Under the pieces are notes generated by a model. It was given only the letters and a program-made list of their open reading frames with translations, was not told the origin of the DNA and searched no databases. From IMG/VR virus record IMGVR_UViG_3300043446_000617, positions 1-64,000 of that record: 64,000 nt of DNA; one strand, given 5' to 3'. Shown in pieces: positions 13,935-50,562 of this stretch; the first letter of the stretch is position 1, and every line of letters begins with the position of its first letter. A program made the position numbers and the translations under genes. The DNA is from a virus.

Positions 13935-14170
13935 GTCCAGAACTGCAGAAATATTACGAAGAGCGATTCTCCATGATGTCCACTCAAGGTTGGGTGGATT
14001 TGATGGAGGATGTTGACAAGATGATTGAACCTTTGAATAATATTTCAACGATTGCAGATGAAAAAAGTCTACAATTTCGTAAAGGTGAGTTATCAATACT
14101 TATTTGGCTGAAAAACTTAAAGCAAGTCAGCGAGAGAGCATTTGAGGACTTAAATGAAAAGAATGTATGA
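13931..14170 (+). CDS. Small head-region protein
   Basis: 79 residues, ATGA-coupled to the portal. Helical (MSPELQKYYEERFSMMSTQG, WVDLMEDVDKMIEPL). The protein is identical in the right copy (47488-47727), although its DNA still shows six substitutions; the last, at 14119, marks the left edge of the identical block. Unknown function. Confidence 0.7.
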   Translation: MSPELQKYYEERFSMMSTQGWVDLMEDVDKMIEPLNNISTIADEKSLQFRKGELSILIWLKNLKQVSERAFEDLNEKNV

Positions 14171-14381
14171 ATTCGCCTGTGTAAATGGGCATAAAACAGA
14201 GAGATTTGTTGATTATGAGGCAACAAAACTCGTATGTGAGTGTGGTGAGGAAACTCATCGCATTCTTTCTGCGCCAGCCTTTAGACTAGAAGGATGGTCT
14301 GGCTCTTTTCCAACTGCTTATAGCAAGTTTGGCAAGAGTCATACTGACAAGCTAAAGGCTGAACGCAAAGCCAACTCATAA
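14154..14381 (+). CDS. FmdB-like zinc-ribbon protein
   Basis: 75 residues. MYEFACVNGHKTERFV and LVCECGEETHRILSAP make the paired-Cys zinc ribbon of FmdB-type proteins common in phage head operons. The C-terminus (RLEGWSGSFPTAYSKFGKSH) is the typical phage version. Overlaps the previous gene by 17 bases. The role in the virion or assembly is unknown. Confidence 0.75.
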   Translation: MKRMYEFACVNGHKTERFVDYEATKLVCECGEETHRILSAPAFRLEGWSGSFPTAYSKFGKSHTDKLKAERKANS

Positions 14382-14438
14382 GCAATTGTGCCGAGTTGAA
14401 TCTCCTACAACCGAAAACGGCAGGAAAAGGAAATAAGT

Positions 14439-15182
14439 ATGTTGATTGACGATGACAAAGAGGTGTTTGGTGAACTAGAAGCTGAAGAGCAAAAGATTGA
14501 GCAAAAGTCTGAGCTTCCTGAGAAATACAGGGACAAAAGTTTAGATGAGATTGTGAGAATGCACCAAGAGGCTGAGAAGCTCATTGGTAAGCAAGCACAA
14601 GAAGTAGGCGAAGTCCGTAAGCTCGCAGATGAACTTATCAAACAGAACCTTGGGTCTAGACAACAACAGACAAAAATGGAAGAGCCTGAAGTAGATTTCT
14701 TTGAGAATCCACAGAAGGCAGTTCAACGGACAGTTGATAATCACCCTGACATCTTAGCTGCACGACAAGTGACGCTAGAGATGAAAAAGGCACAGATTCA
14801 GCAGAAGTTGGCTCAAGAACATCCCGACTTTGGCGAAATCGCTAAAGATCAGGACTTTGCAAACTGGGTTAAATCTAGCCCTGTTCGCATTAAGTTATTT
14901 GAGCAAGCTGATGCGGGATATGATTACGACTCTGCCAATGAATTGCTGTCTACTTACAAGCAACTTCGTAGCATGAAGACTAAGCAAGCAAGTGATGCTG
15001 GAGAAGCCACTCGCAAGCAGAATCTGAAGGCTGTTGGAGTTGATGTTGGTGGTTCTGGAGAATCTTCTAAGAAGGTTTATCGTAGGGCTGACCTTATTCG
15101 GCTGAAAATGCAAGACCCTGGTCGTTATGAAGCGCTAAGTGACGAGATCATGCAAGCGTATTCTGAAGGCCGAGTTAAGTAA
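14439..15182 (+). CDS. Capsid scaffolding protein
   Basis: 247 residues, highly charged and helical with no hydrophobic core: LIDDDKEVFGELEAEEQKIE, KYRDKSLDEIVRMHQEAEKL, and a basic C-terminus (KKVYRRADLIRLKMQDPGRY) that could bind the capsid shell. Position directly before the major capsid gene is diagnostic. It directs prohead assembly and leaves before DNA entry. Identical to 47996-48739. Confidence 0.82.
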   Translation: MLIDDDKEVFGELEAEEQKIEQKSELPEKYRDKSLDEIVRMHQEAEKLIGKQAQEVGEVRKLADELIKQNLGSRQQQTKMEEPEVDFFENPQKAVQRTVDNHPDILAARQVTLEMKKAQIQQKLAQEHPDFGEIAKDQDFANWVKSSPVRIKLFEQADAGYDYDSANELLSTYKQLRSMKTKQASDAGEATRKQNLKAVGVDVGGSGESSKKVYRRADLIRLKMQDPGRYEALSDEIMQAYSEGRVK

Positions 15183-15208
15183 CTTTTTTATTTTTTGGAG
15201 ATTTAATC

Positions 15209-16183
15209 ATGGCAAATACCGCCTTTTCCCCCGCAAATAGTGTAACCACTACATCCGCAGCTAACTTCATTCCAGAGATTTGGAGTGATGAAATTGTTGC
15301 CGCCTATAAAAAGAACCTCGTATTGGCCAACTTGGTCAAGAAGATGTCTTTCAAAGGCAAAAAGGGTGACACTGTTAACATCCCTAGCCCTGCTCGTGGT
15401 TCTGCTTCTGCTAAAGCCGCTACCGATGCAGTTACTTTGATTGCCGAGAGCGACACTAACATTCAAGTGTTGATCAACAAGCACTATGAGTACTCACGCT
15501 TGATCGAAGACATCGTTGAAGTGCAAGCCCTGACATCTTTGCGTTCTTTCTACACAGAAGACGCAGGTTATGCTTTGGCAAAGCGCATCGATACTGACTT
15601 GGTTCAGTTGGGTCGTGCTTTCAATGGCGCTACTGTTGGTACTGATGACTATGCTACTAGCAACACTACTACCAAAGCCTATATCGGCTCTGATGGTACT
15701 ACTGCTTACAACAGCACATCTTCTAACGCTGCTGCTTTGACAGATGCTGCTATTCGTCGCACTATTCAGCGCTTGGACGACAACGACATTCCTATGGATG
15801 GTCGTTTCTTCCTGATTCCTCCATCAAGCCGCAACACTTTGATGGGTCTGGCTCGTTACACTGAGCAAGCCTTCATCGGTAATGGCGATGCGATCCGCAA
15901 TGGTGAAATCGGTCAACTGTACGGCATGGCTGTGTTTGCATCTTCTAATGCTGACACTGGTGCTGGTAACTCTGGCGCTGACCGCATCTGCTTGATGGGC
16001 CACAAAGACGCTATGGTCTTGGTTGAGCAATTGGGCATCCGTTCACAGACTCAGTACAAGCAAGAGTACCTCGGTACATTGTTCACTGCTGACACTATCT
16101 ATGGTGTGAAAGCTCTGCGTACATCTGCTACTAGCTCTGCCGCTAACGCATCTGGTGCATTTGCCTTGGCAGTTCCTGCTTAA
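15209..16183 (+). CDS. Major capsid protein
   Basis: 324 residues, preceded by a TTTGGAG ribosome-binding site. Pattern of podoviral HK97-fold capsid proteins: FIPEIWSDEIVAAYKKNLVL, MSFKGKKGDTVNIPSPARGS, then DTDLVQLGRAFNGATVGTDD and IPMDGRFFLIPPSSRNTLMG. Small residues and Thr/Ser are enriched, as in highly expressed coat proteins. A terminator hairpin follows, probably setting coat excess. Identical to 48766-49740. Confidence 0.92.
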   Translation: MANTAFSPANSVTTTSAANFIPEIWSDEIVAAYKKNLVLANLVKKMSFKGKKGDTVNIPSPARGSASAKAATDAVTLIAESDTNIQVLINKHYEYSRLIEDIVEVQALTSLRSFYTEDAGYALAKRIDTDLVQLGRAFNGATVGTDDYATSNTTTKAYIGSDGTTAYNSTSSNAAALTDAAIRRTIQRLDDNDIPMDGRFFLIPPSSRNTLMGLARYTEQAFIGNGDAIRNGEIGQLYGMAVFASSNADTGAGNSGADRICLMGHKDAMVLVEQLGIRSQTQYKQEYLGTLFTADTIYGVKALRTSATSSAANASGAFALAVPA

Positions 16184-16194
16184 TGTTGCCACTT

Positions 16195-16224
16195 CTCCCC
16201 TGTCTTCGGATGGGGGAGTTTTTT
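16195..16224 (+). terminator. Terminator after the capsid gene
   Basis: CTCCCC (16195-16200) pairs with GGGGAG (16213-16218), followed by six T (16219-16224). Probably a partial terminator that lowers transcription beyond the capsid gene. Confidence 0.8.
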
Positions 16225-16246
16225 CTTAATCTAGGAGGAATTTATT

Positions 16247-16570
16247 ATGGCAACCGCATCATCGGTAACATCACGCAGAGGTAATGACCAGTTTCGTGGT
16301 TTGTTTAGCGACACTTGGGCTGTTCGTGCTACTTTGGACGCAGGTTCATTGGTGGATGGCGCAGGCGAGACTGACGATATCACTATCCCTGGCGTAGCCT
16401 TGGGCGATATGGTCATTGGCGCATCTTTGGGTGTAGATTTGGTTGGTTTAACAGTAACAGGTTATGTTTCTGCCGCAAACACAGTCAAATTCCGTATCCA
16501 GAATGAGTCTGGCTCAACTGTTGACTTGGCTTCTACTACCCTTCGTTTGGTCGTAGTTCGCATGGTCTAA
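16247..16570 (+). CDS. Probable capsid decoration or head protein
   Basis: 107 residues behind a strong TAGGAGGAATT ribosome-binding site. Beta-rich and neutral (GSLVDGAGETDDITIPGVAL, VKFRIQNESGSTVDLASTTL). Flanked by two terminators right after the capsid gene, so it is probably made in large amounts; a decoration protein is the likeliest role, inferred from position. Confidence 0.6.
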   Translation: MATASSVTSRRGNDQFRGLFSDTWAVRATLDAGSLVDGAGETDDITIPGVALGDMVIGASLGVDLVGLTVTGYVSAANTVKFRIQNESGSTVDLASTTLRLVVVRMV

Positions 16571-16574
16571 TCTA

Positions 16575-16597
16575 AAGGGGGCTAATAACCCCCTTTT
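16575..16597 (+). terminator. Second terminator downstream of capsid genes
   Basis: GGGGG (16577-16581) and CCCCC (16589-16593) form a hairpin followed by TTTT. Confidence 0.75.
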
Positions 16598-16611
16598 CTT
16601 CGGAGATTCTT

Positions 16612-16809
16612 ATGGCAACCTTTAAGTGCTTACAAAGTGGGCAAACAGTAACTTTCACGCTTCAACATGATATTGATAGCATGAAGGGTCATGCAGGTTA
16701 TGTCAGAATAGACGAAGAAGTTAAAGAGTCTTTTGAAAAGCCTTTAATATTGTCTCAACCACAGCCTGTTAAGAAGATGGGCAGACCAAGGAAGACTGCA
16801 AATGTCTGA
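16612..16809 (+). CDS. Small protein with C-terminal GRPRK motif
   Basis: 65 residues: a beta-rich start (ATFKCLQSGQTVTFTLQHDI) and a basic AT-hook-like tail (KKMGRPRKTANV). Similar short proteins follow capsid genes in related phages. May bind packaged DNA; unproven. Confidence 0.65.
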   Translation: MATFKCLQSGQTVTFTLQHDIDSMKGHAGYVRIDEEVKESFEKPLILSQPQPVKKMGRPRKTANV

Positions 16810-17005
16810 GATTGATCCACGAGAGTTCGGTAAGTTAGAAGCCCAAGTAGAGGCTCTACAGTCCGAAGTTCATGCTATGCGTGAAGATATTAAAGCCCTT
16901 TTAGAGATGGCAAACAAGTCCAAAGGTGGAATGTTTGTTGGAATGGCTATCGCTTCTGTTTTAGGTGGTGTAGTATCCTTTATAGCTACTAAGGTGATAC
17001 GATGA
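16802..17005 (+). CDS. Coiled-coil protein with C-terminal membrane helix
   Basis: 67 residues. A heptad-like helix (EFGKLEAQVEALQSEVHAMR, EDIKALLEMA) and one transmembrane segment (GMFVGMAIASVLGGVVSFIA), layout similar to XhlA-type lysis accessory proteins. Overlaps both neighbours. Holin-like role possible but unproven. Confidence 0.6.
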   Translation: MSEIDPREFGKLEAQVEALQSEVHAMREDIKALLEMANKSKGGMFVGMAIASVLGGVVSFIATKVIR

Positions 17006-17409
17006 AACTTCTATCTGGCGATACTTGTCCTATAGCGACACAAGATGTTTCGGTCAATCTGAAGAACCGAAATAATGCCTTTAAGAAGTTTGGCTACGGC
17101 CCACCCAACCCTAATGAACCAAATGATGCGTTTTGGCTAAAGAAAGCCAAGATGTATAACGCTCCTACCTCTGTCATCAAAGGTATGCGTTGCGGTAATT
17201 GTGCTGCTTTTATCCAAACTCCAAAGATGATGGCCTGTATTGAAGGCGGTCTAGATAAGGATGAGGTCGAAGGAGAGCTTTCTTATGACAAGAACTTTGT
17301 TAAAGCGGCTGATCTCGGCTATTGCGACTTATTTCAGTTCACTTGTGCTTCCGCTCGTACTTGTGATGCGTGGAAATCTGGCGGCCCTATTACGAAGGAG
17401 AAACCATGA
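17002..17409 (+). CDS. Cysteine-rich protein resembling HiPIP iron-sulfur proteins
   Basis: 135 residues with ordered cysteines: CGNCAAF near residue 63, then MMACIEGG, GYCDLF, FTCASARTCDAWKSGGP. The CxxC...C...GYC pattern recalls high-potential iron-sulfur proteins and recurs in marine and freshwater podophages. Right copy 50559-50966 keeps all the cysteines. An Fe-S or zinc cofactor is plausible; function unknown. Confidence 0.6.
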   Translation: MKLLSGDTCPIATQDVSVNLKNRNNAFKKFGYGPPNPNEPNDAFWLKKAKMYNAPTSVIKGMRCGNCAAFIQTPKMMACIEGGLDKDEVEGELSYDKNFVKAADLGYCDLFQFTCASARTCDAWKSGGPITKEKP

Positions 17410-17558
17410 AAGCAACCAAGAAACCAAGCGATAAGAAGCCTAAAGGTATGCCTATCGCTATTATGATTGCCGTAGGAAAGCCTAAAATGCGTCCTATGCC
17501 TACTCGTGGTGGTCGTACAGCCACTAACATGATGAAGAAATCTGGGAGAAGCAAATGA
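17406..17558 (+). CDS. Lys/Met/Pro-rich small basic protein
   Basis: 50 residues from ATG 17406 (ATGA overlap). Very basic (KKPSDKKPKGMPIAIMIAVG, then MRPMPTRGGRTATNMM). First of four ATGA-linked basic genes ending at 18164. Probably virion DNA-binding or assembly factors. Confidence 0.6.
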   Translation: MKATKKPSDKKPKGMPIAIMIAVGKPKMRPMPTRGGRTATNMMKKSGRSK

Positions 17559-17728
17559 AGAAAGCCGCAGCCGCTAAGAAAGTTGGCAAAGTCATGCACG
17601 AATACAAGACTGGTATGCTTCATACTGGGTCTAAAAAAGGCCCTACTGTCACTTCTCGTAAACAGGCTATTGCCATTGCTTTGTCTGAAGCAGGTATGTC
17701 TAAGCCTAAGATGAAGAAAAAGAAATGA
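17555..17728 (+). CDS. DUF6496-type small basic protein
   Basis: 57 residues, ATGA overlap. KVMHEYKTGMLHTGSKKGP and RKQAIAIALSEAGMSK match the DUF6496 pattern. Lys-rich at both ends. Function unknown; homologue at 51112-51279. Confidence 0.68.
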   Translation: MKKAAAAKKVGKVMHEYKTGMLHTGSKKGPTVTSRKQAIAIALSEAGMSKPKMKKKK

Positions 17729-17874
17729 AACAAGGTCTTTACGCTAACATCCATGCCAAACAAGAGCGCATCAAAGCAGGCTCTAAGGAAAAGATGCGTA
17801 AAGTTGGCTCAAAGGGCGCTCCAACAGAGGCCGCCTTTAAAGCTGCAGCTAAAACTGCAAAGAAGAAGAAATGA
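17725..17874 (+). CDS. Small basic conserved phage protein
   Basis: 49 residues: MKQGLYANIHAKQERIKAGS, KMRKVGSKGAPTEAAF, ending in a poly-Lys tail. ATGA overlap at both ends. Recurrent in podophage structural operons next to DUF6496 and DUF6321 genes. Function unknown. Confidence 0.65.
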   Translation: MKQGLYANIHAKQERIKAGSKEKMRKVGSKGAPTEAAFKAAAKTAKKKK

Positions 17875-18164
17875 AAACTCCTGCTTGGCAAAGAAAAGAA
17901 GGAAAATCTCCTTCTGGGGGCTTGAATGCCAAGGGGAGAGCATCTTATAATGCAGAAACAGGTGGTAATTTAAAAGCACCAGTCAAGTCGGGAGATAACC
18001 CTCGTAGGGCATCCTTTTTAGCACGAATGGGCAATATGCCTGGCGCTGAGATGAAAGATGGAAAGCCTACCCGACTTTTACTTTCTCTTAGAGCTTGGGG
18101 GGCATCGTCCAAGGAAGACGCTAAGGCTAAAGCCAAGGCGATCTCTAAGAGGAATAAGAAATGA
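17871..18164 (+). CDS. DUF6321-type protein
   Basis: 97 residues. The conserved block GGLNAKGRASYNAETGG, VKSGDNPRRASFLARMGNMP, RLLLSLRAWGASSKEDA is typical of DUF6321. Highly basic. Nearly the same in the right copy (51422-51715). Function unknown. Confidence 0.7.
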   Translation: MKTPAWQRKEGKSPSGGLNAKGRASYNAETGGNLKAPVKSGDNPRRASFLARMGNMPGAEMKDGKPTRLLLSLRAWGASSKEDAKAKAKAISKRNKK

Positions 18165-18499
18165 GAGCTAGGTCTGTCGGTGCAAATCTAACTGCTGCAA
18201 CAGCAACTACGCTGTTCACAGTGCCGACTGGCTATTACGCCAAATGCGTATTGCTCCATGCTTCAAACTCTACTTCTGCTAATAAGCATATTACCTTCGA
18301 ATGGTACGATGCTAGTGCATCTTTAACAATTCCAGTAATCTATCAGTACACAATCACGGCAAAAGCAACTTTGTCTGCCATTGATCTGACTAAGTACTTT
18401 GTAATGGAAGAGGGTGACTATATCGTAGCCACTTCTGAATCTGCATCTACGATTTCTGTGATTGCAACATTTGAAATTGAAGGGTCACAACGAACATGA
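18161..18499 (+). CDS. Small beta-rich structural protein
   Basis: 112 residues, ATGA overlap. Ser/Thr/Ala-rich beta pattern (NLTAATATTLFTVPTGYYAK, then SASTISVIATFEIEG). Position before the tail-tube gene suggests a virion decoration or head-tail protein. Homologue 51712-52050 starts at GTG. Confidence 0.62.
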   Translation: MRARSVGANLTAATATTLFTVPTGYYAKCVLLHASNSTSANKHITFEWYDASASLTIPVIYQYTITAKATLSAIDLTKYFVMEEGDYIVATSESASTISVIATFEIEGSQRT

Positions 18500-19140
18500 C
18501 ATACTTAGAACTCGTTAATGATGTGCTTGTTCGCTTGCGTGAAAGCACTGTTTCTACTGTTGGCGAAACAACATATTCTTCTTTGATTGGCAAGTTTGTC
18601 AATGATGCCAAGCGCCAGATCGAAGACACATACACTTGGAATTGTCTATCACAAACAGTAACAATTTCGACTACTGGTGGCACACATTCATATTCTTTGA
18701 CTGGTGTTGGTCAAAAGTTCCGTGTGATGGATTCTCTGAATACAACTAGCAATGTTGTAATGGGTGATATTCCTTTCACGAGCATGAATCGTAAGTTGAA
18801 CTTTGTGACTCCTGTTCAAGGAATCCCCTCTGAATACTGCTTCAATGGCGTGGATTCTAATGGTGACACAAAGATTGATGTTTACCCTATTCCTGATGGC
18901 ACTTACACATTTCTGTTTGATGTGATTGTTCCTCAAGCTAATCTTTCATCTGATAGCACTACAGTAAAAGTCTTGGACTATTTGGTGACTCAGAGTGCTT
19001 ATGCTCGTGCTTTGATTGAGCGTGGTGAAGATGGAGGAACTAACTCTTCCGAGGCTTATGCCATGTTCCGAGGAATGCTTGCTGATGCTATTGCTATGGA
19101 AAGCACTCGTTACCCTGAAGATAATTTTGAGGCAGTCTGA
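18496..19140 (+). CDS. Tail tubular protein A-like adaptor
   Basis: 214 residues. Helical N-terminus (TYLELVNDVLVRLRESTVST, VNDAKRQIEDTYTWNCL) followed by a beta domain and helical C-terminus (AYARALIERGEDGG). This is the pattern of podoviral adaptor proteins that dock under the portal (T7 gp11/P22 gp4-like role). Order portal, capsid, adaptor supports it. Homologue 52047-52691. Confidence 0.72.
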   Translation: MTYLELVNDVLVRLRESTVSTVGETTYSSLIGKFVNDAKRQIEDTYTWNCLSQTVTISTTGGTHSYSLTGVGQKFRVMDSLNTTSNVVMGDIPFTSMNRKLNFVTPVQGIPSEYCFNGVDSNGDTKIDVYPIPDGTYTFLFDVIVPQANLSSDSTTVKVLDYLVTQSAYARALIERGEDGGTNSSEAYAMFRGMLADAIAMESTRYPEDNFEAV

Positions 19141-20684
19141 TGTCTAAGCAACTTCAAAGTTACAGTCTTTCAGCACCAGGCTTTTATGGCTTGAATACTG
19201 AAGACTCACCTCTTGATTTGGGGTCTGGCTTTGCTTTAGTTGCTACAAACTGTATCCTTGATCAATATGGTCGTATTGGTGCTAGAAAAGGTTGGACAAG
19301 GGTTAATTCTTCCTCTGGAAACCTTGGTGCTAATGATGTTGGCGTTATCCATGAGCTAGTTCAGATTGATGGAACATTGACTGTCCTTTTTGCAGGAAAC
19401 AATAAGATATTCAAGCTCAATAGCTCAAATGCTGTTGTTGAATTGACCTATGGTGGGGGTGGTTCTGCTCCTACTATCTCTGCAAATAATTGGCAATGTT
19501 CGACTCTCAATGGTGTTGCATACTTCTTCCAGACTGGACACGATGCTTTGATTTACGACCCTGCAGTAAGCACTACGACTTATCGCAGAGTTTCTGAAAA
19601 ATCAGGAAGTACTGGTACTGTTCCGCAAGCCAATATCTGTTTATCAGCATTTGGTCGGTTGTGGGTTGCTAATACTTCTACTGATAAGGTAACAGTTAGC
19701 TTCTCTGATCTGATTGCAGGTCATGTTTGGTCTGGAGGCACTTCAGGCTCACTAGATGTTTCTCGTGTATGGCCTAATGGTGCTGACGAAGTGATGGGTT
19801 TGGCTGCTCACAATGATTTCTTGTTTATCTTTGGTAAACGACAGATTCTTGTTTATTCAGGCGCTTCTACGCCTGCATCTATCGTTCTGAGCGACACGAT
19901 TGGCTCTATTGGATGTATTGCACGAGATACGATTCAGAGTGTTGGTTCTGATGTAATTTTCTTGTCAGACTCAGGCGTTCGTTCACTGATGAGAACTATT
20001 CAAGAGAAGTCTGCTCCTTTGCGTGACTTGTCTAAGAATGTTCGTTTTGACCTTGCATCATCATTGGCAAGCGAAACATTGGCTAACTTGAAGTCTGTTT
20101 ACTCAGAAAAAGAAGCCTTCTATCTGCTTGTTCTGCCAGCAACATTCCAAGTTTATTGCTTTGATACCAAACAATCATTGCAAGATGGTTCTTCTAGGGT
20201 TACTAAGTGGGATTCTATTGCTCCAACTTGCTTGAAATCATTGCGAAATGGTGATTTGTATATTGGAAAGAATGGTTACATTGGTAAATATGATGGTTAT
20301 TTGGATGACACATCTACTTATCGATTTGCTTACTATACGAACAATGCTGACTTAGGTAATCCTAACCAGATTTCCATTCTGAAGTCTGTTACTGCCATTG
20401 TGATTGGTGGATCGAATCAGTATTTAACAATTCTGTGGGGATTTGACTATTCTGGTGCTTACCAAGCAGAGAACGTCTACATTCCTTCACAGACAAGCTA
20501 TGAGTATGGCACTGCTGAATACAACATAGCTGAATACACAAGTGGTGTCCCTATCAAGACTCTTTCTGCCAATGCAACAGGGGCAGGAAAGATCGTCCAG
20601 ACTGGTTATGAGACTACGATCAACAATGTATCGTTCTCATTGCAAAAGATTGAAATTCAAGCCAAAGATGGCAAAATAGCCTAA
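19140..20684 (+). CDS. Packaged-DNA stabilisation/tail hub protein (gp10-like)
   Basis: 514 residues, beta-rich with repeated blades (DVGVIHELVQIDGTLTVLFA, AHNDFLFIFGKRQILVYSGA, SIGCIARDTIQSVGSDVIFL). N-terminus APGFYGLNTEDSPLDLGSGF and RIGARKGW fit the family that plugs the portal channel and carries fibres in short tails. Start overlaps the previous stop. Homologue 52691-54235. Confidence 0.75.
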   Translation: MSKQLQSYSLSAPGFYGLNTEDSPLDLGSGFALVATNCILDQYGRIGARKGWTRVNSSSGNLGANDVGVIHELVQIDGTLTVLFAGNNKIFKLNSSNAVVELTYGGGGSAPTISANNWQCSTLNGVAYFFQTGHDALIYDPAVSTTTYRRVSEKSGSTGTVPQANICLSAFGRLWVANTSTDKVTVSFSDLIAGHVWSGGTSGSLDVSRVWPNGADEVMGLAAHNDFLFIFGKRQILVYSGASTPASIVLSDTIGSIGCIARDTIQSVGSDVIFLSDSGVRSLMRTIQEKSAPLRDLSKNVRFDLASSLASETLANLKSVYSEKEAFYLLVLPATFQVYCFDTKQSLQDGSSRVTKWDSIAPTCLKSLRNGDLYIGKNGYIGKYDGYLDDTSTYRFAYYTNNADLGNPNQISILKSVTAIVIGGSNQYLTILWGFDYSGAYQAENVYIPSQTSYEYGTAEYNIAEYTSGVPIKTLSANATGAGKIVQTGYETTINNVSFSLQKIEIQAKDGKIA

Positions 20685-20694
20685 GAGGTAAATT

Positions 20695-23600
20695 ATGAGT
20701 AACTACACCAAAACCACCAATTTTGCTAGCAAAGACAATTTATCACCTGGCAATCCTTTGAAGATTGTTAAGGGTGCTGAGATTGACACTGAATATAATA
20801 ATATTGCGACTGCTATTGCCACTAAAACTGACAATGCTTCTGCCAATATTACTGGTGGTTCAATTACTGGTATTACCGATTTGGCTATTGCTGATGGTGG
20901 TACAGGAGCTTCTACGGCTACTGCTGCTATCAATAATCTCTTGCCTTCACAGACAAGCAATGCTAACAAATATCTACAAACTGATGGAACAAATGTTTCT
21001 TGGGATGCTGTCAGTCTATCTACTTCTGACATTACTGGCACTTTACCTGTTGCAAATGGTGGTACAGGCGTAACCACTTCTACTGGCACAGGAAGTGTAG
21101 TGTTGTCAAACTCGCCAACACTTGTGACACCTGCTTTAGGTACTCCTGCATCAGGCGTAGCCACTAACTTAACAGGCTTACCATTAACTACTGGTGTAAC
21201 AGGAACTTTGCCAGTGGCGAATGGCGGTACTGGTGTTACCACATCTACTGGCACAGGTTCTGCCGTTCTATCAAACAGTCCTACATTGGTGACTCCTGCA
21301 TTGGGAACACCTGCCTCTGCGACTTTGACAAATGCCACAGGATTGCCGATCTCTACTGGTGTGAGTGGCTTGGGTACTGGTGTTGCTACTTTCTTGGCTA
21401 CACCTACATCTGCTAATTTGGCTACTGCAGTAAGCGATGAAACAGGTAGTGGGGCTTTGGTGTTTGCCAATAGCCCAACATTGGTCACTCCCGCCCTTGG
21501 AACGCCCTCTAGCGGTACTTTGACCAATGCTACTGGCTTACCTATCAGCACAGGCGTTTCAGGTCTTGGAACAGGCGTAGCAACTTTCCTAGCAACTCCA
21601 TCTAGCGCAAACCTTATCTCTGCTGTAACAGATGAGACTGGCACAGGGTCTTTGGTCTTTGCAACCTCTCCTACATTAGTGACACCTGCTTTGGGTACAC
21701 CTTCTAGTGCAACATTAACTAACGCTACAGGACTTCCAATTTCAACTGGTGTTTCTGGTTTAGGAACTGGTGTTGCTACCGCTCTAGCAGGCAATGTTGG
21801 TTCTGCTGGCGCTCCAGTGGTTAATGGCGGTGTTTTGGGTACTCCATCTAGCGGTACTGCTACTAATTTAACTGGTCTTCCTTTGTCTACAGGCGTGACA
21901 GGAACTTTGCCAGTAGCGAATGGTGGAACTGGAGTAACAACATCCACTGGTTCTGGCAATAATGTACTGTCAACTAGCCCAACCCTTGTAACGCCTGCTC
22001 TTGGTACTCCATCAAGTGCAACATTGACTAATGCAACTGGTTTGCCATTGTCTACTGGTGTTATTGGAACTCTTCCAGTTGCTAATGGTGGAACAGGACA
22101 AACAACATATACAGATGGTCAACTGTTAATTGGTAATTCAACAGGAAATACGCTTACAAAAGCAACATTGACTGCAGGTTCTGGTGTAACTATTACCAAT
22201 GGTGGCGGTTCAATTACTATTGCGGCTTCTGGTGGTGGTGCTTCTGCCGCTACACCTACTGCATTGGGTACTGTTTATGGCTCAATGACCACTAGCGGTG
22301 CGTCACCGTATTTGACTGCACTTGGATATAACGCAGGCGCATCAAATACTGGCGTAAACAATAGTGCTGTAGGTTTCTCTGCGCTGAACAGCAATAGTTC
22401 AGGAACTAATAACAGCGCCCTTGGTATCTACGCTTTGAATTTGAACACTAGTGGCAGTTACAACACTGCTTTGGGTTCTTATTCAATGGGTAGCAATACC
22501 ACAGCATCTGGTAACACAGGTGTTGGTTATTACGCTGTTGGCTCAAATACTACTGGTATATCTAATACAGGCGTTGGTCGAGAAGCCCTGTCCAGCAATA
22601 CCACTGGCAGTTACAACACTGCTGTAGGCGCATTAGCACTTACAGCAAACACAACTGGCGGTGAATATAACAACGCTTTTGGTTGGCAGGCACTGAAAGC
22701 AAACACTACTGGCAATGAGAACCAAGCATTTGGTATATCTGCAATGCTGTCAAATACGACTGGTTCTAATAACACGGCAATGGGTTCAAATGCACTTCGT
22801 TCCAACACCACAGGCACAGATCATGTGGCGGTTGGCTATCAAGCTCTTTATAGCAACTCAACTTCAAACAACCTTTCTGCATTAGGTAGTCAGGCTGGGT
22901 ATTCAATGACAGGTGCATCAGGCACTTTCCTTGGGTATAGGGCTGGATATAGCGTCACAGGAACAGACAATACTGTTGTTGGACATGACGCAATGTATGC
23001 CACTACAACTGGCACATCTAACACGGCAGTTGGCAAACAGGCTTTGCGCTTTAACACCACAGCATCTAACAACACTGCTGTAGGTTATCAGGCGGCATAC
23101 ACAAACACCACTGGTGCAAGCAACACCGCTGTAGGCTATCAATCGTTATACGCAAACACTACGGGTGACATCAGTGTTGCGGTTGGTATGAACGCATTAA
23201 AAGCACAAACTACAGCAACACAAAATACCGCCATGGGTTATGGTGCTGGAGCAAAGCTAACCTCAAGTAGTTACAACGTGGCTATTGGTACTAGCGCATT
23301 AGGCAACATGGTAAATGGCGCTAATCAAAACGTTGCAATTGGACAAAATGCTTTATTAAGTTATGTAAACACAAGCGTTTCTGAAGGTGGTGCGGTTGCG
23401 GTTGGAGCTGGCGCTCTACAAAACTGCACTACAGGTGGCTCTAACATTGCAATGGGGCGTAACGCTGGATTATCAATTACAACAGGCGCACTTAACACGG
23501 TAATAGGGGATAGGGCTGGCGAATCTGCCAACTCAAATTATGGTGTGTATCTTGGTTCATTCTGCGGCATTTACACAACTGGCGACTACAACACTTTTAT

Positions 23601-24123
23601 TGGGTGGCAAGCAGGTCACAATACAACTAGCACAACCACAGGATCGTCAAACATTTACATTGGCGCAGCGTCAAGAGGTAGCGCGGCAACAAATAGTTCT
23701 GAAATTGTTATTGGTGTAAGTGCTAATGGTAAAGGCTCTAGCACTGGTTTTATTAACCCAAATAGCGGTGGCGTTTACCAAGGTAACAATTCATCTTCAT
23801 GGTCAACCACTTCTGACCAACGCTTGAAAAAAAATATTGCTGACAACAATGACGGCTTGGACAAGATCAATTCAATTCGTGTACGCAACTTTGAGTATCG
23901 CTTGCCAGAGGAAGTTGACACAGAACTTAGCCCTAATGACGCAATCAAAAAATCAGGTGTGCAACTTGGCGTAATTGCTCAAGAACTGCAAGCCGTTTTG
24001 CCTGAGTGCGTAAAGCAAGAATCGACTGGCGTTCTGTCTGTTGATACCGACAACCTGACTTGGTACTTAATTAATGCGGTCAAGGAATTGTCTGCTCGTA
24101 TAAAGCAATTGGAAGGAAACTGA
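20695..24123 (+). CDS. Tail fibre with repeat shaft and S74 chaperone domain
   Basis: 1142 residues. The N-terminal 40 (NFASKDNLSPGNPLKIVKG) match the right-copy fibre and should attach to the tail. Residues about 110-480 hold repeats of GTLPVANGGTGVTTSTG and SPTLVTPALGTPSS; about 545-985 hold YadA-head-like repeats (NTTGSNNTAMGSNALRS). The C-terminus has SDQRLKKNIADNNDG and LGVIAQELQAVLP, a Peptidase_S74 intramolecular chaperone that trims itself after trimer folding (Ser and Lys dyad visible). Confidence 0.9.
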   Translation: MSNYTKTTNFASKDNLSPGNPLKIVKGAEIDTEYNNIATAIATKTDNASANITGGSITGITDLAIADGGTGASTATAAINNLLPSQTSNANKYLQTDGTNVSWDAVSLSTSDITGTLPVANGGTGVTTSTGTGSVVLSNSPTLVTPALGTPASGVATNLTGLPLTTGVTGTLPVANGGTGVTTSTGTGSAVLSNSPTLVTPALGTPASATLTNATGLPISTGVSGLGTGVATFLATPTSANLATAVSDETGSGALVFANSPTLVTPALGTPSSGTLTNATGLPISTGVSGLGTGVATFLATPSSANLISAVTDETGTGSLVFATSPTLVTPALGTPSSATLTNATGLPISTGVSGLGTGVATALAGNVGSAGAPVVNGGVLGTPSSGTATNLTGLPLSTGVTGTLPVANGGTGVTTSTGSGNNVLSTSPTLVTPALGTPSSATLTNATGLPLSTGVIGTLPVANGGTGQTTYTDGQLLIGNSTGNTLTKATLTAGSGVTITNGGGSITIAASGGGASAATPTALGTVYGSMTTSGASPYLTALGYNAGASNTGVNNSAVGFSALNSNSSGTNNSALGIYALNLNTSGSYNTALGSYSMGSNTTASGNTGVGYYAVGSNTTGISNTGVGREALSSNTTGSYNTAVGALALTANTTGGEYNNAFGWQALKANTTGNENQAFGISAMLSNTTGSNNTAMGSNALRSNTTGTDHVAVGYQALYSNSTSNNLSALGSQAGYSMTGASGTFLGYRAGYSVTGTDNTVVGHDAMYATTTGTSNTAVGKQALRFNTTASNNTAVGYQAAYTNTTGASNTAVGYQSLYANTTGDISVAVGMNALKAQTTATQNTAMGYGAGAKLTSSSYNVAIGTSALGNMVNGANQNVAIGQNALLSYVNTSVSEGGAVAVGAGALQNCTTGGSNIAMGRNAGLSITTGALNTVIGDRAGESANSNYGVYLGSFCGIYTTGDYNTFIGWQAGHNTTSTTTGSSNIYIGAASRGSAATNSSEIVIGVSANGKGSSTGFINPNSGGVYQGNNSSSWSTTSDQRLKKNIADNNDGLDKINSIRVRNFEYRLPEEVDTELSPNDAIKKSGVQLGVIAQELQAVLPECVKQESTGVLSVDTDNLTWYLINAVKELSARIKQLEGN
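21040..22120 (+). repeat. Fibre shaft protein-level repeats
   Basis: The unit around VANGGTGVTTSTGTG / SPTLVTPALGTP / TNATGLPISTGVSGLGTG recurs about six times at the protein level, but the DNA of the units uses clearly different synonymous codons. Confidence 0.8.
22350..23650 (+). repeat. YadA-head-like repeat region of fibre
   Basis: About 30 short units of the form NTAVGYQAL plus xxNTTG. Predicted left-handed beta-roll shaft. Confidence 0.75.
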
Positions 24124-26448: not shown

Positions 26449-26457
26449 GGATTCATC

Positions 26458-36549: not shown

Positions 36550-36653
36550 GCCACTATCAGGCAATGATCCTGTTAGACCAAGTAAAGGATGGAAAGAATG
36601 TTCCGCTTTATCTGATAAACAAAGCATTGGAGCTTACAGGAGACTTAGAGTAA
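36546..36653 (+). CDS. Conserved 35-residue microprotein
   Basis: MSHYQAMILLDQVKDGKNVP, LYLINKALELTGDLE. Homologue of 3810-3917, here ATGA-coupled directly to the replication gene since no HNH gene intervenes. Confidence 0.7.
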   Translation: MSHYQAMILLDQVKDGKNVPLYLINKALELTGDLE

Positions 36654-36659
36654 ACACCT

Positions 36660-43892: not shown

Positions 43893-44270
43893 ATGGAAGC
43901 GCGATTGAAAAGAGGAAGAGGAAGACCTAAAGGGTCGGTGAAGATGACGATACAGAGGTTTGCTGATAACCCGCCTGCTGTATTGCCTAAGACAGACCAC
44001 CAGAGGCTCAAGGAGTTGAAGGAGTTGATGATCAGGAGTGGAGGTAAGGATGTTGCTCAGAAGGTCATAGAGATAGCTCTGAATGACGACCATCCACACC
44101 AATTGGTTGCTTTGAAGATGTGCTTAGACAGGACATTGCCTATTTCCATGTTTGAAAAGGATAAGAGCCAAAGGTCTGCTGTGACGATTAACATTACAGG
44201 ACTTGGTGAGCCTACTGTTATTGATACGAATCCTGATGAACCCCAAGATGTAGAGGCTAAATATGGCTGA
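43893..44270 (+). CDS. terS: Terminase small subunit (candidate)
   Basis: 125 residues from ATG 43893. Like 9646-10017, with the basic RGRGRPKGSVKM N-terminus. The C-terminus has two extra residues (DEPQDVEAKYG). Stop overlaps the terL start by 8 bases. Confidence 0.7.
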   Translation: MEARLKRGRGRPKGSVKMTIQRFADNPPAVLPKTDHQRLKELKELMIRSGGKDVAQKVIEIALNDDHPHQLVALKMCLDRTLPISMFEKDKSQRSAVTINITGLGEPTVIDTNPDEPQDVEAKYG

Positions 44271-45522
44271 CCTTAATTTCTCTCTACTACCCTGGCAACA
44301 AGAAGTCTTCAAAGACCAAACGAGGTTTAAGGTAGTGGCTGCTGGTCGTAGGTGTGGTAAGTCTAGGATGGCGGCAGTAACGCTCTTGATTGAGGGTTTA
44401 AAGTGTCCACAAGGCTCTGCTGTGCTTTATGTATCACCTACTATGGGACAGTCAAGACAGATTATCTGGGACTTGTTGTTAGACCTTGGTAGAGACATTA
44501 TCCAGAACAGTCATGTGAACAACTTGGATATCACTCTGATAAACGGAGCAAGAATCTATGTTCGTGGTGCTGACAGACCAGATACCCTTCGTGGTGTGTC
44601 TCTAACGTATGCCGTACTAGACGAGGTAGCCGATATCAAGCCTGAAGCATGGGAACAGGTTATCCGAGCATCTCTATCTGATAAACGAGGAAGAGCCTTG
44701 TTTATTGGGACTCCTAAAGGGCGTAATTGGTTCTACGATACCTTTAAATTGGGCGAGAGTGAGGATGATCCTGATTGGAAGTCCTGGCACTTCACCACCG
44801 CAGACAACCCTTTGATTGACCAAAAAGAGATTGAATCTGCCAAGAAGACCCTGAGTTCCTTTGCTTTCAAACAAGAGTACATGGCGAGCTTTACCAATGC
44901 GGGTTCAGACATCTTCAAGGAAGAATGGATTAAGTATGGTGTTGAGCCTCAATATGGAAGCTATTACATTGCTGTAGACCTAGCAGGATTTGAAGAGGTT
45001 GCCAAACAAGCCGCTAACTCTAAGAAGCGTCTTGATGAGTCTGCTATCTCGATTGTGAAGGTTACTGACGATGGGAAGTGGTTTGTTCAGAAGATTGAAC
45101 ACGGAAGATGGGACATTCGGGAGACTGCTGCCAAGATATTGGTTGCTATTCGGGACTATAGACCTTTGGCAGTAGGGATTGAGCGGGGGGCGCTAAAGAA
45201 CGCTGTTTTACCCTATCTGAGTGACCTAATGCGAAAAAACAACACATTTGCGCATATCGTTGATTTGACTCATGGAAACAGAAAAAAAGCTGACAGGATA
45301 ATCTGGGCTTTACAAGGAAGGTTCGAGCATGGCAGAATTGTGTTAAATTCTGAGGAAGATTGGGATGAGTTCGTAGACCAGTTAATCCTGTTCCCTGCTC
45401 AAGGAGTTCACGATGACTTGCCTGACTCCCTTAGTTACATTGACCAACTTGCTGTTACATCTTACATGGAAGAAGATGACAGTGAGGAATGGACACCAGT
45501 AGATATTATTTCAGGGGTATAG
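44263..45522 (+). CDS. terL: Terminase large subunit
   Basis: 419 residues. Walker A AAGRRCGKSRM, Walker B YAVLDEVAD, nuclease YYIAVDLAG and HDDLPDSLSY. Few substitutions from 10179-11438. Start ATG overlaps terS. Confidence 0.95.
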   Translation: MADLNFSLLPWQQEVFKDQTRFKVVAAGRRCGKSRMAAVTLLIEGLKCPQGSAVLYVSPTMGQSRQIIWDLLLDLGRDIIQNSHVNNLDITLINGARIYVRGADRPDTLRGVSLTYAVLDEVADIKPEAWEQVIRASLSDKRGRALFIGTPKGRNWFYDTFKLGESEDDPDWKSWHFTTADNPLIDQKEIESAKKTLSSFAFKQEYMASFTNAGSDIFKEEWIKYGVEPQYGSYYIAVDLAGFEEVAKQAANSKKRLDESAISIVKVTDDGKWFVQKIEHGRWDIRETAAKILVAIRDYRPLAVGIERGALKNAVLPYLSDLMRKNNTFAHIVDLTHGNRKKADRIIWALQGRFEHGRIVLNSEEDWDEFVDQLILFPAQGVHDDLPDSLSYIDQLAVTSYMEEDDSEEWTPVDIISGV

Positions 45523-45523
45523 A

Positions 45524-47491
45524 ATGGAATTCCAAGAACCAAGCGATTCAGATAAGGAACTGGTTTCCTTCGTTGTTGACCACTGTGATCGGTGGAGACA
45601 ATACCGAGATACCAACTATCTGGATGACTGGTTGGAATACGAGCGCATCTTTACTGGTGAATGGGCTGCTGAAGATAAGACTCGTGATTCCGAGCGTAGC
45701 CGAATTGTCACTCCTGCTACCCAACAAGCCGTAGAGACACGCCATGCCGAAATCATGGAAGCTATCTTTGGTCAAGGTGAATTCTTTGACATCCAAGACG
45801 ATATTCGTGATGTCAACAACAATCCTTTAGATGTTGCGGCTATTAAGGCTCAACTTATGGAAGACTTCAAGGTCGATAAGATTCGCAAATCTATTGATCA
45901 AATTGAGCTTCTTGCTGAACTCTATGGTACTGGTATCGGTGAGATTGTTGTCAAAACAGAGAAGGTCTATGTTCCTTCTACTCAACCTATTCCTGGTCAA
46001 GTTGGACAAGCAGCAATTGGTGTTGTAGAAAAAGACCGAATTGCAGTAAAGATTGTTCCTGTTAATCCTCGTAACTTCTTGTTTGACCCTAATGGCACAT
46101 CTATTGATGACTGTATGGGCGTGGCAGTAGAGAAGTATGTCTCTATCCATAAGATTGTTAAAGGTCAGGAAGATGGCATCTATCGCAAGGTAGAAGTCGG
46201 CACTGACTCTATGGACACAGACTTAGAGCCTACTCAAGAGATTACTCAGTTTGAAGACGATAAAGTCAAACTGTTGACCTACTATGGACTTGTTCCTCGT
46301 GAATATCTTGACCAAATTGAAGATGGTGCTGAAGTAGAGGACTTGTTCCCTGAAGACTCAGTACAAGACGAATATGCTGATTTGGTCGAAGCAATTGTCG
46401 TGATTGCCAATGATGGTGTTCTTCTGAAGGCAGAAAAGAACCCATACATGATGAAAGACCGCCCAATCCTTGCTTATCAGGACGATACAGTTCCTAATCG
46501 CTTGTTGGGTCGTGGTACTGTTGAGAAGGCTTACAACTCACAGAAAGCTATTGATGCCCAAGTTCGTAGCCACTTAGACTCTTTGGCGCTGACTACAAGC
46601 CCAATGATGGCTATGGATGCTACTCGCTTGCCTCGTGGTGCTAAGTTTGAAGTTCGACCAGGCAAATCTATCCTGACAAACGGCAATCCTAATGAGATTT
46701 TGTTCCCATTCAAGTTCGGCAATACTGATGGTTCTAATCTGACGACTGCTAAAGAGTTTGAACGTATGCTTTTGCAAGCTACTGGCACTCTGGACTCTCA
46801 AGGAATGGTATCTGCAGTCTCCCGAGATGCAGGTCAAGGTGGTATTTCGATGGCTGTAGCCTCGATTATCAAGAAATACAAGCGTACATTGGTGAACTTC
46901 CAAGAGGATTTCATGATCCCCTTCATCACCAAGGCTGCTTACCGCTATATGCAGTTTGACCCAGAGCGTTATCCTACTGTGGACATGAAGTTTATTCCGA
47001 CTGCCGCATTGGGAATCATTGCTCGTGAGCATGAACAACAACAGTTCATCTCTTTGCTACAGACTCTTGGCCCAAATACACCTGTTTTGCCAGTCATTCT
47101 CAAGGGAATCATGGCAAATTCATCGTTGTCTAACCGCTACGAGTTGATTCAGATGCTTGATAAGATGGCTACGGCTGATCCACAAGCACAACAGGCTCAA
47201 CAGATGCAACAACAATTGGCTATGCAACTGGCTCAAGCCCAGATTGCTGTCCAAACCACTCAAGCCGAGCAGAATAAGGCAGAGGCTCAGAAGTTGTTGA
47301 CAGAGGCTCAATTGATGCCTATTGAGTTACAGGCTAAGAGCATGGCGGCTAATACCAAGAATCTACCTAAACAGGATGACTTGGCTTCTAAAGAGTTTGA
47401 TAAGCGAGTCAAGATTGCTGAATTGATGCTCAAGGAAGCAGATATCAAGACTAAGGCCAAGATTGTTGACCAACAGATGACCAAACAATGA
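45524..47491 (+). CDS. Portal protein
   Basis: 655 residues from ATG 45524, directly after terL with no HNH gene between. Homologue of 11946-13934. The N-terminal 60 and the segment around EDGAEVEDLFPEDS differ most; the C-terminal half is almost unchanged. Confidence 0.9.
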   Translation: MEFQEPSDSDKELVSFVVDHCDRWRQYRDTNYLDDWLEYERIFTGEWAAEDKTRDSERSRIVTPATQQAVETRHAEIMEAIFGQGEFFDIQDDIRDVNNNPLDVAAIKAQLMEDFKVDKIRKSIDQIELLAELYGTGIGEIVVKTEKVYVPSTQPIPGQVGQAAIGVVEKDRIAVKIVPVNPRNFLFDPNGTSIDDCMGVAVEKYVSIHKIVKGQEDGIYRKVEVGTDSMDTDLEPTQEITQFEDDKVKLLTYYGLVPREYLDQIEDGAEVEDLFPEDSVQDEYADLVEAIVVIANDGVLLKAEKNPYMMKDRPILAYQDDTVPNRLLGRGTVEKAYNSQKAIDAQVRSHLDSLALTTSPMMAMDATRLPRGAKFEVRPGKSILTNGNPNEILFPFKFGNTDGSNLTTAKEFERMLLQATGTLDSQGMVSAVSRDAGQGGISMAVASIIKKYKRTLVNFQEDFMIPFITKAAYRYMQFDPERYPTVDMKFIPTAALGIIAREHEQQQFISLLQTLGPNTPVLPVILKGIMANSSLSNRYELIQMLDKMATADPQAQQAQQMQQQLAMQLAQAQIAVQTTQAEQNKAEAQKLLTEAQLMPIELQAKSMAANTKNLPKQDDLASKEFDKRVKIAELMLKEADIKTKAKIVDQQMTKQ

Positions 47492-47727
47492 GTCCAGAAC
47501 TGCAAAAGTATTACGAAGAGCGATTCTCCATGATGTCCACTCAGGGTTGGGTGGATTTGATGGAGGATGTTGACAAGATGATTGAACCTTTGAATAATAT
47601 TTCAACGATTGCAGATGAAAAAAGTCTACAATTTAGAAAAGGTGAGTTATCAATACTTATTTGGCTGAAAAACTTGAAGCAAGTCAGCGAGAGAGCATTT
47701 GAGGACTTAAATGAAAAGAATGTATGA
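47488..47727 (+). CDS. Small head-region protein
   Basis: 79 residues, protein identical to 13931-14170 though the DNA differs at six positions. ATGA-coupled to portal. Confidence 0.7.
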   Translation: MSPELQKYYEERFSMMSTQGWVDLMEDVDKMIEPLNNISTIADEKSLQFRKGELSILIWLKNLKQVSERAFEDLNEKNV

Positions 47728-47938
47728 ATTCGCCTGTGTAAATGGGCATAAAACAGAGAGATTTGTTGATTATGAGGCAACAAAACTCGTATGTGAGTGT
47801 GGTGAGGAAACTCATCGCATTCTTTCTGCGCCAGCCTTTAGACTAGAAGGATGGTCTGGCTCTTTTCCAACTGCTTATAGCAAGTTTGGCAAGAGTCATA
47901 CTGACAAGCTAAAGGCTGAACGCAAAGCCAACTCATAA
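47711..47938 (+). CDS. FmdB-like zinc-ribbon protein
   Basis: 75 residues, identical to 14154-14381 at DNA and protein level. Confidence 0.75.
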   Translation: MKRMYEFACVNGHKTERFVDYEATKLVCECGEETHRILSAPAFRLEGWSGSFPTAYSKFGKSHTDKLKAERKANS

Positions 47939-47995
47939 GCAATTGTGCCGAGTTGAATCTCCTACAACCGAAAACGGCAGGAAAAGGAAATAAGT

Positions 47996-48739
47996 ATGTT
48001 GATTGACGATGACAAAGAGGTGTTTGGTGAACTAGAAGCTGAAGAGCAAAAGATTGAGCAAAAGTCTGAGCTTCCTGAGAAATACAGGGACAAAAGTTTA
48101 GATGAGATTGTGAGAATGCACCAAGAGGCTGAGAAGCTCATTGGTAAGCAAGCACAAGAAGTAGGCGAAGTCCGTAAGCTCGCAGATGAACTTATCAAAC
48201 AGAACCTTGGGTCTAGACAACAACAGACAAAAATGGAAGAGCCTGAAGTAGATTTCTTTGAGAATCCACAGAAGGCAGTTCAACGGACAGTTGATAATCA
48301 CCCTGACATCTTAGCTGCACGACAAGTGACGCTAGAGATGAAAAAGGCACAGATTCAGCAGAAGTTGGCTCAAGAACATCCCGACTTTGGCGAAATCGCT
48401 AAAGATCAGGACTTTGCAAACTGGGTTAAATCTAGCCCTGTTCGCATTAAGTTATTTGAGCAAGCTGATGCGGGATATGATTACGACTCTGCCAATGAAT
48501 TGCTGTCTACTTACAAGCAACTTCGTAGCATGAAGACTAAGCAAGCAAGTGATGCTGGAGAAGCCACTCGCAAGCAGAATCTGAAGGCTGTTGGAGTTGA
48601 TGTTGGTGGTTCTGGAGAATCTTCTAAGAAGGTTTATCGTAGGGCTGACCTTATTCGGCTGAAAATGCAAGACCCTGGTCGTTATGAAGCGCTAAGTGAC
48701 GAGATCATGCAAGCGTATTCTGAAGGCCGAGTTAAGTAA
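47996..48739 (+). CDS. Capsid scaffolding protein
   Basis: 247 residues, identical to 14439-15182. Charged helical protein before the capsid gene. Confidence 0.82.
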   Translation: MLIDDDKEVFGELEAEEQKIEQKSELPEKYRDKSLDEIVRMHQEAEKLIGKQAQEVGEVRKLADELIKQNLGSRQQQTKMEEPEVDFFENPQKAVQRTVDNHPDILAARQVTLEMKKAQIQQKLAQEHPDFGEIAKDQDFANWVKSSPVRIKLFEQADAGYDYDSANELLSTYKQLRSMKTKQASDAGEATRKQNLKAVGVDVGGSGESSKKVYRRADLIRLKMQDPGRYEALSDEIMQAYSEGRVK

Positions 48740-48765
48740 CTTTTTTATTTTTTGGAGATTTAATC

Positions 48766-49740
48766 ATGGCAAATACCGCCTTTTCCCCCGCAAATAGTGT
48801 AACCACTACATCCGCAGCTAACTTCATTCCAGAGATTTGGAGTGATGAAATTGTTGCCGCCTATAAAAAGAACCTCGTATTGGCCAACTTGGTCAAGAAG
48901 ATGTCTTTCAAAGGCAAAAAGGGTGACACTGTTAACATCCCTAGCCCTGCTCGTGGTTCTGCTTCTGCTAAAGCCGCTACCGATGCAGTTACTTTGATTG
49001 CCGAGAGCGACACTAACATTCAAGTGTTGATCAACAAGCACTATGAGTACTCACGCTTGATCGAAGACATCGTTGAAGTGCAAGCCCTGACATCTTTGCG
49101 TTCTTTCTACACAGAAGACGCAGGTTATGCTTTGGCAAAGCGCATCGATACTGACTTGGTTCAGTTGGGTCGTGCTTTCAATGGCGCTACTGTTGGTACT
49201 GATGACTATGCTACTAGCAACACTACTACCAAAGCCTATATCGGCTCTGATGGTACTACTGCTTACAACAGCACATCTTCTAACGCTGCTGCTTTGACAG
49301 ATGCTGCTATTCGTCGCACTATTCAGCGCTTGGACGACAACGACATTCCTATGGATGGTCGTTTCTTCCTGATTCCTCCATCAAGCCGCAACACTTTGAT
49401 GGGTCTGGCTCGTTACACTGAGCAAGCCTTCATCGGTAATGGCGATGCGATCCGCAATGGTGAAATCGGTCAACTGTACGGCATGGCTGTGTTTGCATCT
49501 TCTAATGCTGACACTGGTGCTGGTAACTCTGGCGCTGACCGCATCTGCTTGATGGGCCACAAAGACGCTATGGTCTTGGTTGAGCAATTGGGCATCCGTT
49601 CACAGACTCAGTACAAGCAAGAGTACCTCGGTACATTGTTCACTGCTGACACTATCTATGGTGTGAAAGCTCTGCGTACATCTGCTACTAGCTCTGCCGC
49701 TAACGCATCTGGTGCATTTGCCTTGGCAGTTCCTGCTTAA
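48766..49740 (+). CDS. Major capsid protein
   Basis: 324 residues, identical to 15209-16183. If both genes came from different virions the coats would be indistinguishable. Confidence 0.92.
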   Translation: MANTAFSPANSVTTTSAANFIPEIWSDEIVAAYKKNLVLANLVKKMSFKGKKGDTVNIPSPARGSASAKAATDAVTLIAESDTNIQVLINKHYEYSRLIEDIVEVQALTSLRSFYTEDAGYALAKRIDTDLVQLGRAFNGATVGTDDYATSNTTTKAYIGSDGTTAYNSTSSNAAALTDAAIRRTIQRLDDNDIPMDGRFFLIPPSSRNTLMGLARYTEQAFIGNGDAIRNGEIGQLYGMAVFASSNADTGAGNSGADRICLMGHKDAMVLVEQLGIRSQTQYKQEYLGTLFTADTIYGVKALRTSATSSAANASGAFALAVPA

Positions 49741-49751
49741 TGTTGCCACTT

Positions 49752-49781
49752 CTCCCCTGTCTTCGGATGGGGGAGTTTTTT
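49752..49781 (+). terminator. Terminator after the capsid gene
   Basis: CTCCCC/GGGGAG hairpin and six T, as at 16195-16224. Confidence 0.8.
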
Positions 49782-49803
49782 CTTAATCTAGGAGGAATTT
49801 ATT

Positions 49804-50127
49804 ATGGCAACCGCATCATCGGTAACATCACGCAGAGGTAATGACCAGTTTCGTGGTTTGTTTAGCGACACTTGGGCTGTTCGTGCTACTTTGGACGCAG
49901 GTTCATTGGTGGATGGCGCAGGCGAGACTGACGATATCACTATCCCTGGCGTAGCCTTGGGCGATATGGTCATTGGCGCATCTTTGGGTGTAGATTTGGT
50001 TGGTTTAACAGTAACAGGTTATGTTTCTGCCGCAAACACAGTCAAATTCCGTATCCAGAATGAGTCTGGCTCAACTGTTGACTTGGCTTCTACTACCCTT
50101 CGTTTGGTCGTAGTTCGCATGGTCTAA
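49804..50127 (+). CDS. Probable capsid decoration or head protein
   Basis: 107 residues, identical to 16247-16570, with the same TAGGAGGAATT site. Confidence 0.6.
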   Translation: MATASSVTSRRGNDQFRGLFSDTWAVRATLDAGSLVDGAGETDDITIPGVALGDMVIGASLGVDLVGLTVTGYVSAANTVKFRIQNESGSTVDLASTTLRLVVVRMV

Positions 50128-50131
50128 TCTA

Positions 50132-50154
50132 AAGGGGGCTAATAACCCCCTTTT
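50132..50154 (+). terminator. Second terminator downstream of capsid genes
   Basis: GGGGG/CCCCC hairpin and TTTT, as at 16575-16597. Confidence 0.75.
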
Positions 50155-50168
50155 CTTCGGAGATTCTT

Positions 50169-50366
50169 ATGGCAACCTTTAAGTGCTTACAAAGTGGGCA
50201 AACAGTAACTTTCACGCTTCAACATGATATTGATAGCATGAAGGGTCATGCAGGTTATGTCAGAATAGACGAAGAAGTTAAAGAGTCTTTTGAAAAGCCT
50301 TTAATATTGTCTCAACCACAGCCTGTTAAGAAGATGGGCAGACCAAGGAAGACTGCAAATGTCTGA
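50169..50366 (+). CDS. Small protein with C-terminal GRPRK motif
   Basis: 65 residues, identical to 16612-16809. Confidence 0.65.
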   Translation: MATFKCLQSGQTVTFTLQHDIDSMKGHAGYVRIDEEVKESFEKPLILSQPQPVKKMGRPRKTANV

Positions 50367-50562
50367 GATTGATCCACGAGAGTTCGGTAAGTTAGAAGCC
50401 CAAGTAGAGGCTCTACAGTCCGAAGTTCATGCTATGCGTGAAGATATTAAAGCCCTTTTAGAGATGGCAAACAAGTCCAAAGGTGGAATGTTTGTTGGAA
50501 TGGCTATCGCTTCTGTTTTAGGTGGTGTAGTATCCTTTATAGCCACTAAGGTGATACGATGA
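50359..50562 (+). CDS. Coiled-coil protein with C-terminal membrane helix
   Basis: 67 residues, same protein as 16802-17005. The identical block ends inside this gene: the first difference (T/C, silent) is at 50544. Confidence 0.6.
   Translation: MSEIDPREFGKLEAQVEALQSEVHAMREDIKALLEMANKSKGGMFVGMAIASVLGGVVSFIATKVIR

Follow-up and report, generated by a model that had tools for sequence, protein, structure and literature searches.

Does the IMG/VR record IMGVR_UViG_3300043446_000617, in which one phage gene order is written twice, represent a phage with a double-size genome, or two genomes that were joined in one contig? We investigated bases 1-64000 of this record (the whole stretch of 64,000 nucleotides, hereafter the window), and the rest of its full length of 68,218 bases was also taken in. 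In the record a copy A (1-34206) is followed by a copy B (34207-67641) and then by 577 bases that open a third round (67642-68218). At its centre is a block, named R, that is found once in each copy: positions 14120-16986 equal positions 47677-50543 over 2867 bases, with 0 mismatches, on the same strand and with an offset of 33,557. The record very probably corresponds to two related, co-occurring phage genomes joined by assembly through R, and its double length is almost certainly an assembly artefact of a known kind and not a real feature.

Copies A and B align collinearly in one phage gene order and are diverged, with 90.6% identity over 11968-20871, 77% over 25581-29743 and 66-88% in several stretches of the early region; in places there is no match. 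The bases that flank R differ between the copies (14119 A vs 47676 G; 16987 T vs 50544 C), and the next-longest exact repeat in the window has 124 bases. Compared over 300 bases at a time, the A/B identity climbs from 85% to 97% on approaching R from the left, and is 92% and then 78% to the right of it. The initial annotation, made from the sequence alone, had described a gene order repeated head to tail in diverged copies and an exactly identical block with substitutions resuming at once on both sides, and both descriptions are borne out.

The k-mer content was then compared between one circle of 67,641 bases and two circles of 33,557 and 34,084 bases. The k-mer sets of the two arrangements are identical at k = 127, 500, 2867 and 2868, and diverge at k = 2869 and 2900. 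Therefore, with identical k-mers up to k = 2868, a short-read graph is unable to support the written order. The record very probably stems from two related phages of the same place, both carrying R, whose genomes are circular or circularly permuted. In a short-read graph R would then have two entries, from A-early and from B-early, and two exits, to A-late and to B-late, one arc being a loop that leaves and re-enters R. The assembled path would run from A-early into R, once around the loop (A-late, B-early and R again) and out into B-late, until the allele of a third strain is reached; a SPAdes-type traversal of the graph loop is proposed for the written order.

Considering this path, genome 1 is well supported as a predicted 33,557-bp circle at 14120-47676, made up of R, A-late and B-early. 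Genome 2 would comprise R, 50544-67641 and 1-14119, about 34,084 bp, although the third allele may instead supply its early half. The initial annotation had proposed 14120-47676 and the remainder as the true genomes; the former agrees with an arc recovered as a contig of its own (see below), while the remainder has to be divided into 34,084 bp and an overrun of 577 bases. The overrun shares its first 110 bases with the record start (Table 1) and then continues for 467 bases (67752-68218) in a third allele, whose identity to the other two is about 78-80%; this makes the early half of genome 2 less certain.

The same DNA is present in a second assembly, that of sample 3300046804, of which three contigs fit the record and all three end within R. 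The contig IMGVR_UViG_3300046804_000997 (32,134 bp) is 100% identical to window positions 16860-48993, with 0 mismatches; it starts at R position 2741, runs through A-late and B-early, and stops at R position 1317. Contig 3300046804_000049 (17,955 bp) begins at R position 1191 and corresponds to 48867-66821 with 24 mismatches, and contig 3300046804_003016 (8,596 bp) corresponds to 5986-14242 with 1 mismatch and terminates at R position 123. A figure-eight graph, as put forward in the initial annotation, fits all these observations: the record has a same-strand exact repeat that exceeds any k-mer or insert in length, the arcs are found in another assembly as separate contigs that meet in R, and the arc predicted for genome 1 is found alone as contig 000997.

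A usual maximum k-mer is 127. Contig 000997 overlaps contig 000049 by exactly 127 bases (R 1191-1317), and its lead-in within R is also exactly 127 bases (R 2741-2867), the length that branch points of a de Bruijn graph should leave according to the COBRA paper (PMC10914622). Contig 003016 stops four bases short of a pure-R 127-mer, which probably reflects a further variant near R on an A-early background, on one side or the other. At its opposite end, bases 1-339 of this contig (IMGVR_UViG_3300046804_003016, L587), which departs from A-early at 5985, match nothing in the record and, judged from their sequence, are another strain variant.

The mismatches of contig 000049 are concentrated in R, with 23 of the 1,677 compared sites in R differing (positions 1318-2724) vs 1 of 16,278 outside it (Fisher p = 4e-23). 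Of these 23 substitutions, 21 are synonymous and two alter the capsid protein, and this version of the block, R', is therefore a natural haplotype. In the window B-late follows R, and in sample 3300046804 it follows R'. Probably, then, the perfect identity of R is partly a consensus produced by the window's assembler, which would have merged two haplotypes; this would explain a perfectly identical block inside a region of 85-97% identity. We infer that R was nearly identical in both phages after a recent exchange. The earlier proposal of an identical segment common to the two genomes thus holds for the record as written, but with R' in the B-late phage of sample 3300046804 a true identity in both phages is improbable.

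Related records were collected by seven protein scans of IMG/VR, the best 80 matches being kept in each. Among these matches the longest related record has 40,443 bp, and none of them is of about 67 kb. A terminase search in 50 records matched 33, in which two terminase genes are present in the window's own record and one in G002. In the other 31, G047 has two terminase genes owing to an end overlap of 1,293 bases, a single gene is split across the ends in G042 and G050, and the rest have one. The ends were checked in 29 of these 31 relatives (30.9-38.3 kb), G022 and G028 being left out as weak or distant matches. Exact end repeats of 87-197 bases mark 8 of the 29 as closed single genomes of 33,493-37,582 bp, and the two arcs, each taken with R, give 33,557 and 34,084 bp, in accordance with this single-genome size of 33.5-37.6 kb. 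One of them, G004 (= L008), closes at 34,496 bp, and the identity between its capsid protein and that in R is 97%; a genome of 34.5 kb can thus carry a near-identical capsid.

Another 8 of the 29 relatives have end overlaps that are flush but diverged, covering 177-1,293 bases with an identity of 88-99.4% (L037, L080, L265, L267, L353, L392, L414 and L445, i.e. G008, G016, G031, G032, G041, G047, G049 and G051). From their sequences, these overlaps look like the same fault on a small scale, the contig rounding its circle and continuing into another strain. G033 has an exact overlap of 125 bases that falls 7 bases short of the end; among the remaining relatives two have partial overlaps and ten have none (one of these with a 25-base chance match). 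Where the relatives' ends can be placed they fall at different genes, several ends being without an assignable gene; an origin of the diverged overlaps in a fixed biological terminal repeat was rejected on account of these differing positions. To pair the halves by similarity, 17 segments were also compared, each in its A and its B version, with 80 loci; apart from those of sample 3300046804, none of the loci resembles either version closely enough to reveal the pairing.

Other explanations of the record take its order, its pairing of halves or its early region differently. A real heterodimeric genome of about 67.6 kb, with two diverged genomes head to tail and a capsid module homogenised by recent gene conversion, would agree with the written order itself, and the k-mer data are compatible with it; the identity climbing towards R is also what gene conversion would give. 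Such a genome would, however, duplicate all structural and packaging genes, the two R haplotypes of sample 3300046804 indicate that the block is not homogenised there, and the related records, both the longest among the matches listed and the eight closed circles, one with the 97%-identical capsid protein, are of a smaller size; we give this explanation very little credence. Very improbable too is a physically real 67.6-kb order in which co-infecting phages recombine at the capsid block, mixed concatemers replicate and packaging yields single genomes whose halves are swapped. The head-to-tail order of related phages would also be expected from two prophages in tandem at one host attachment site, but none of the 30 distinct proteins scanned matches an integrase family, no tRNA gene was found, no host gene was recognised and the relatives close as free circles; with no integrase among these proteins and no tRNA, the tandem prophage was rejected and can be regarded as virtually excluded.

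The halves could instead belong together as written, the true genomes being A-early/A-late and B-early/B-late and the joins at 34206/34207 and 67641/1 being wrong. Each copy does have a complete gene order, and the exchange of R is maybe so recent that both pairings exist. Nevertheless, A-late passes into B-early in sequence without a long repeat and unbroken in contig 000997, and this is therefore not a repeat-induced join, which leaves the parental pairing scarcely credible. A last alternative keeps the assembly artefact and changes the composition of genome 2, whose early half would be the third allele (67752-68218 onward), 1-14119 coming from a third phage. We consider it unlikely, although it deserves some weight: the record does overrun into this allele, the A-early contig of sample 3300046804 departs from the window sequence, and the nearest relative, 3300025889_001828, has the third allele (94%) beside a stretch 94% like window 1262-2406, an arrangement that points to alleles interchangeable between strains. 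On the other side, the 110 bases at this point are also those with which the record begins, as in a circle that closes.

Several points weigh against the joining of two genomes through R, the explanation that we prefer. Sample 3300046804 is maybe not independent, as its near-zero mismatch rate fits a common water source or even a common set of reads, and R' might stem from another time point or a difference between the samples and not show a collapse of haplotypes. Among the contigs found in that sample none crosses R from an early to a late half, and the pairing of early with late halves across R is something we infer. Finally, the end overlap of the record has 110 bases and not 127 as in sample 3300046804.

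Table 1 Coordinates of the shared block, the parts of the putative genome 2, the end overlap and the main genes in record IMGVR_UViG_3300043446_000617 (ORF, open reading frame)
Feature	Position	Strand	Remarks
R copy 1	14120-16986	+	End of a small ORF, 75-aa ORF, scaffold-like gene 14439-15182, major capsid gene 15209-16183, three small ORFs
R copy 2	47677-50543	+	Exact copy; the B-late phage in sample 3300046804 has R' (23 substitutions, R positions 1318-2724)
Putative genome 2, late part	50544-64000 (to 67641 in the record)	+	Contig 3300046804_000049, 1 mismatch outside R
Putative genome 2, early part with terminase and portal	1-14119	+	Contig 3300046804_003016; 110-base end overlap
End overlap	1-110 = 67642-67751	.	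Paths then split: allele with HNH (124-624) vs allele without it (67752-68218)
Terminase large subunit, A copy	10176-11438	+	phrog_2, 1e-48
Terminase large subunit, B copy	44263-45522	+	97% residue identity with the A copy
Portal, A copy	11940-13934	+	phrog_1216, 9e-39; B copy 45524-47491
Erf-type single-strand annealing protein, A copy	626-1240	-	phrog_155, 5e-22; PF04404, 8e-10; B copy 34330-34938
Tail fibre/spike, A copy	20695-24123	+	Internal repeats, S74 peptidase end
Endolysin, A copy	32257-32856	+	phrog_181, 3e-73 and 1e-74; B copy 64337-64936 of the record, outside the window

Terminase, portal, scaffold-like, capsid, tail, fibre, spanin-like, endolysin and Erf-type annealing genes, together with a few early genes, are present in both copies; only some of the B genes were scanned, the remaining ones being placed via the A/B alignment. 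The capsid protein of R matches phrog_267 (5e-48), and the gene in the scaffold position matches phrog_13678 and the head scaffolding family phrog_19777 (4e-05). With the capsid proteins of Anabaena phage A-4L, Mastigocladus phage CHP58 and Phormidium phage Pf-WMP4 it shares 26-34% identity, the portal has its best matches, at 23-27%, in phages of Pelagibacter, Roseobacter and others, and window positions 9000-21000 have no nucleotide match in the cultured-phage collection.

The two copies also differ in individual genes. The B fibre (54262-56544) is different from the A fibre and matches it only near the start, the alignment stopping at 20871/54438. A phosphoadenosine phosphosulfate reductase gene is present at 38288-39130 in B-early, and A has no matching stretch there. 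The segments 3825-4635 and 36561-37371, which cover the larger part of a cytosine-5 DNA methyltransferase gene, are 88% identical amid weaker matches and are possibly another exchanged segment. Beyond the end overlap, the record start carries an HNH endonuclease gene followed by one Erf allele, and the record end leads directly into another Erf allele. This HNH gene (124-624) adjoins the overlap in one allele only, the other two alleles being without it, and it may be a cause of assembly breaks here.

For the use of databases, the record would count as a double-size phage whose early and late halves, as paired, probably do not belong together, and it is useful mainly as a warning. The clade is prone to such artefacts, with 8 of the 29 near-complete relatives overrunning into sequence that is a diverged form of their own beginning, and a test for exact end repeats would miss these eight IMG/VR records, whose flush overlaps run into another strain.

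The CheckV paper reports contigs of IMG/VR in which one genome is repeated and considers them probable artefacts (PMC8116208), and MetaVR screens concatemers by a mean 21-mer frequency >1.4 (PMC12807716). Like these concatemers, the present record holds more than one genome length in one contig through assembly. Those concatemers, however, repeat one genome and have a raised k-mer frequency, near the copy number, whereas the record comprises two different strains with a mean 21-mer frequency of 1.08, so that, being below 1.4, it would pass the MetaVR criterion as given there. Among cultured phages, the podovirus-like phages A-4L, CHP58 and Pf-WMP4 have a related capsid protein and are otherwise far diverged from the record. 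In the COBRA paper, assemblers are described as leaving maxK ends at branch points, the causes named are regions shared between genomes and within-population variation, and COBRA itself is stated to be unable to detect or fix such chimeras (PMC10914622). The contigs of sample 3300046804 are alike to breaks of this type as described there, with their 127-base overlaps inside R, whereas the assembler of the record, instead of stopping, crossed the shared region twice.

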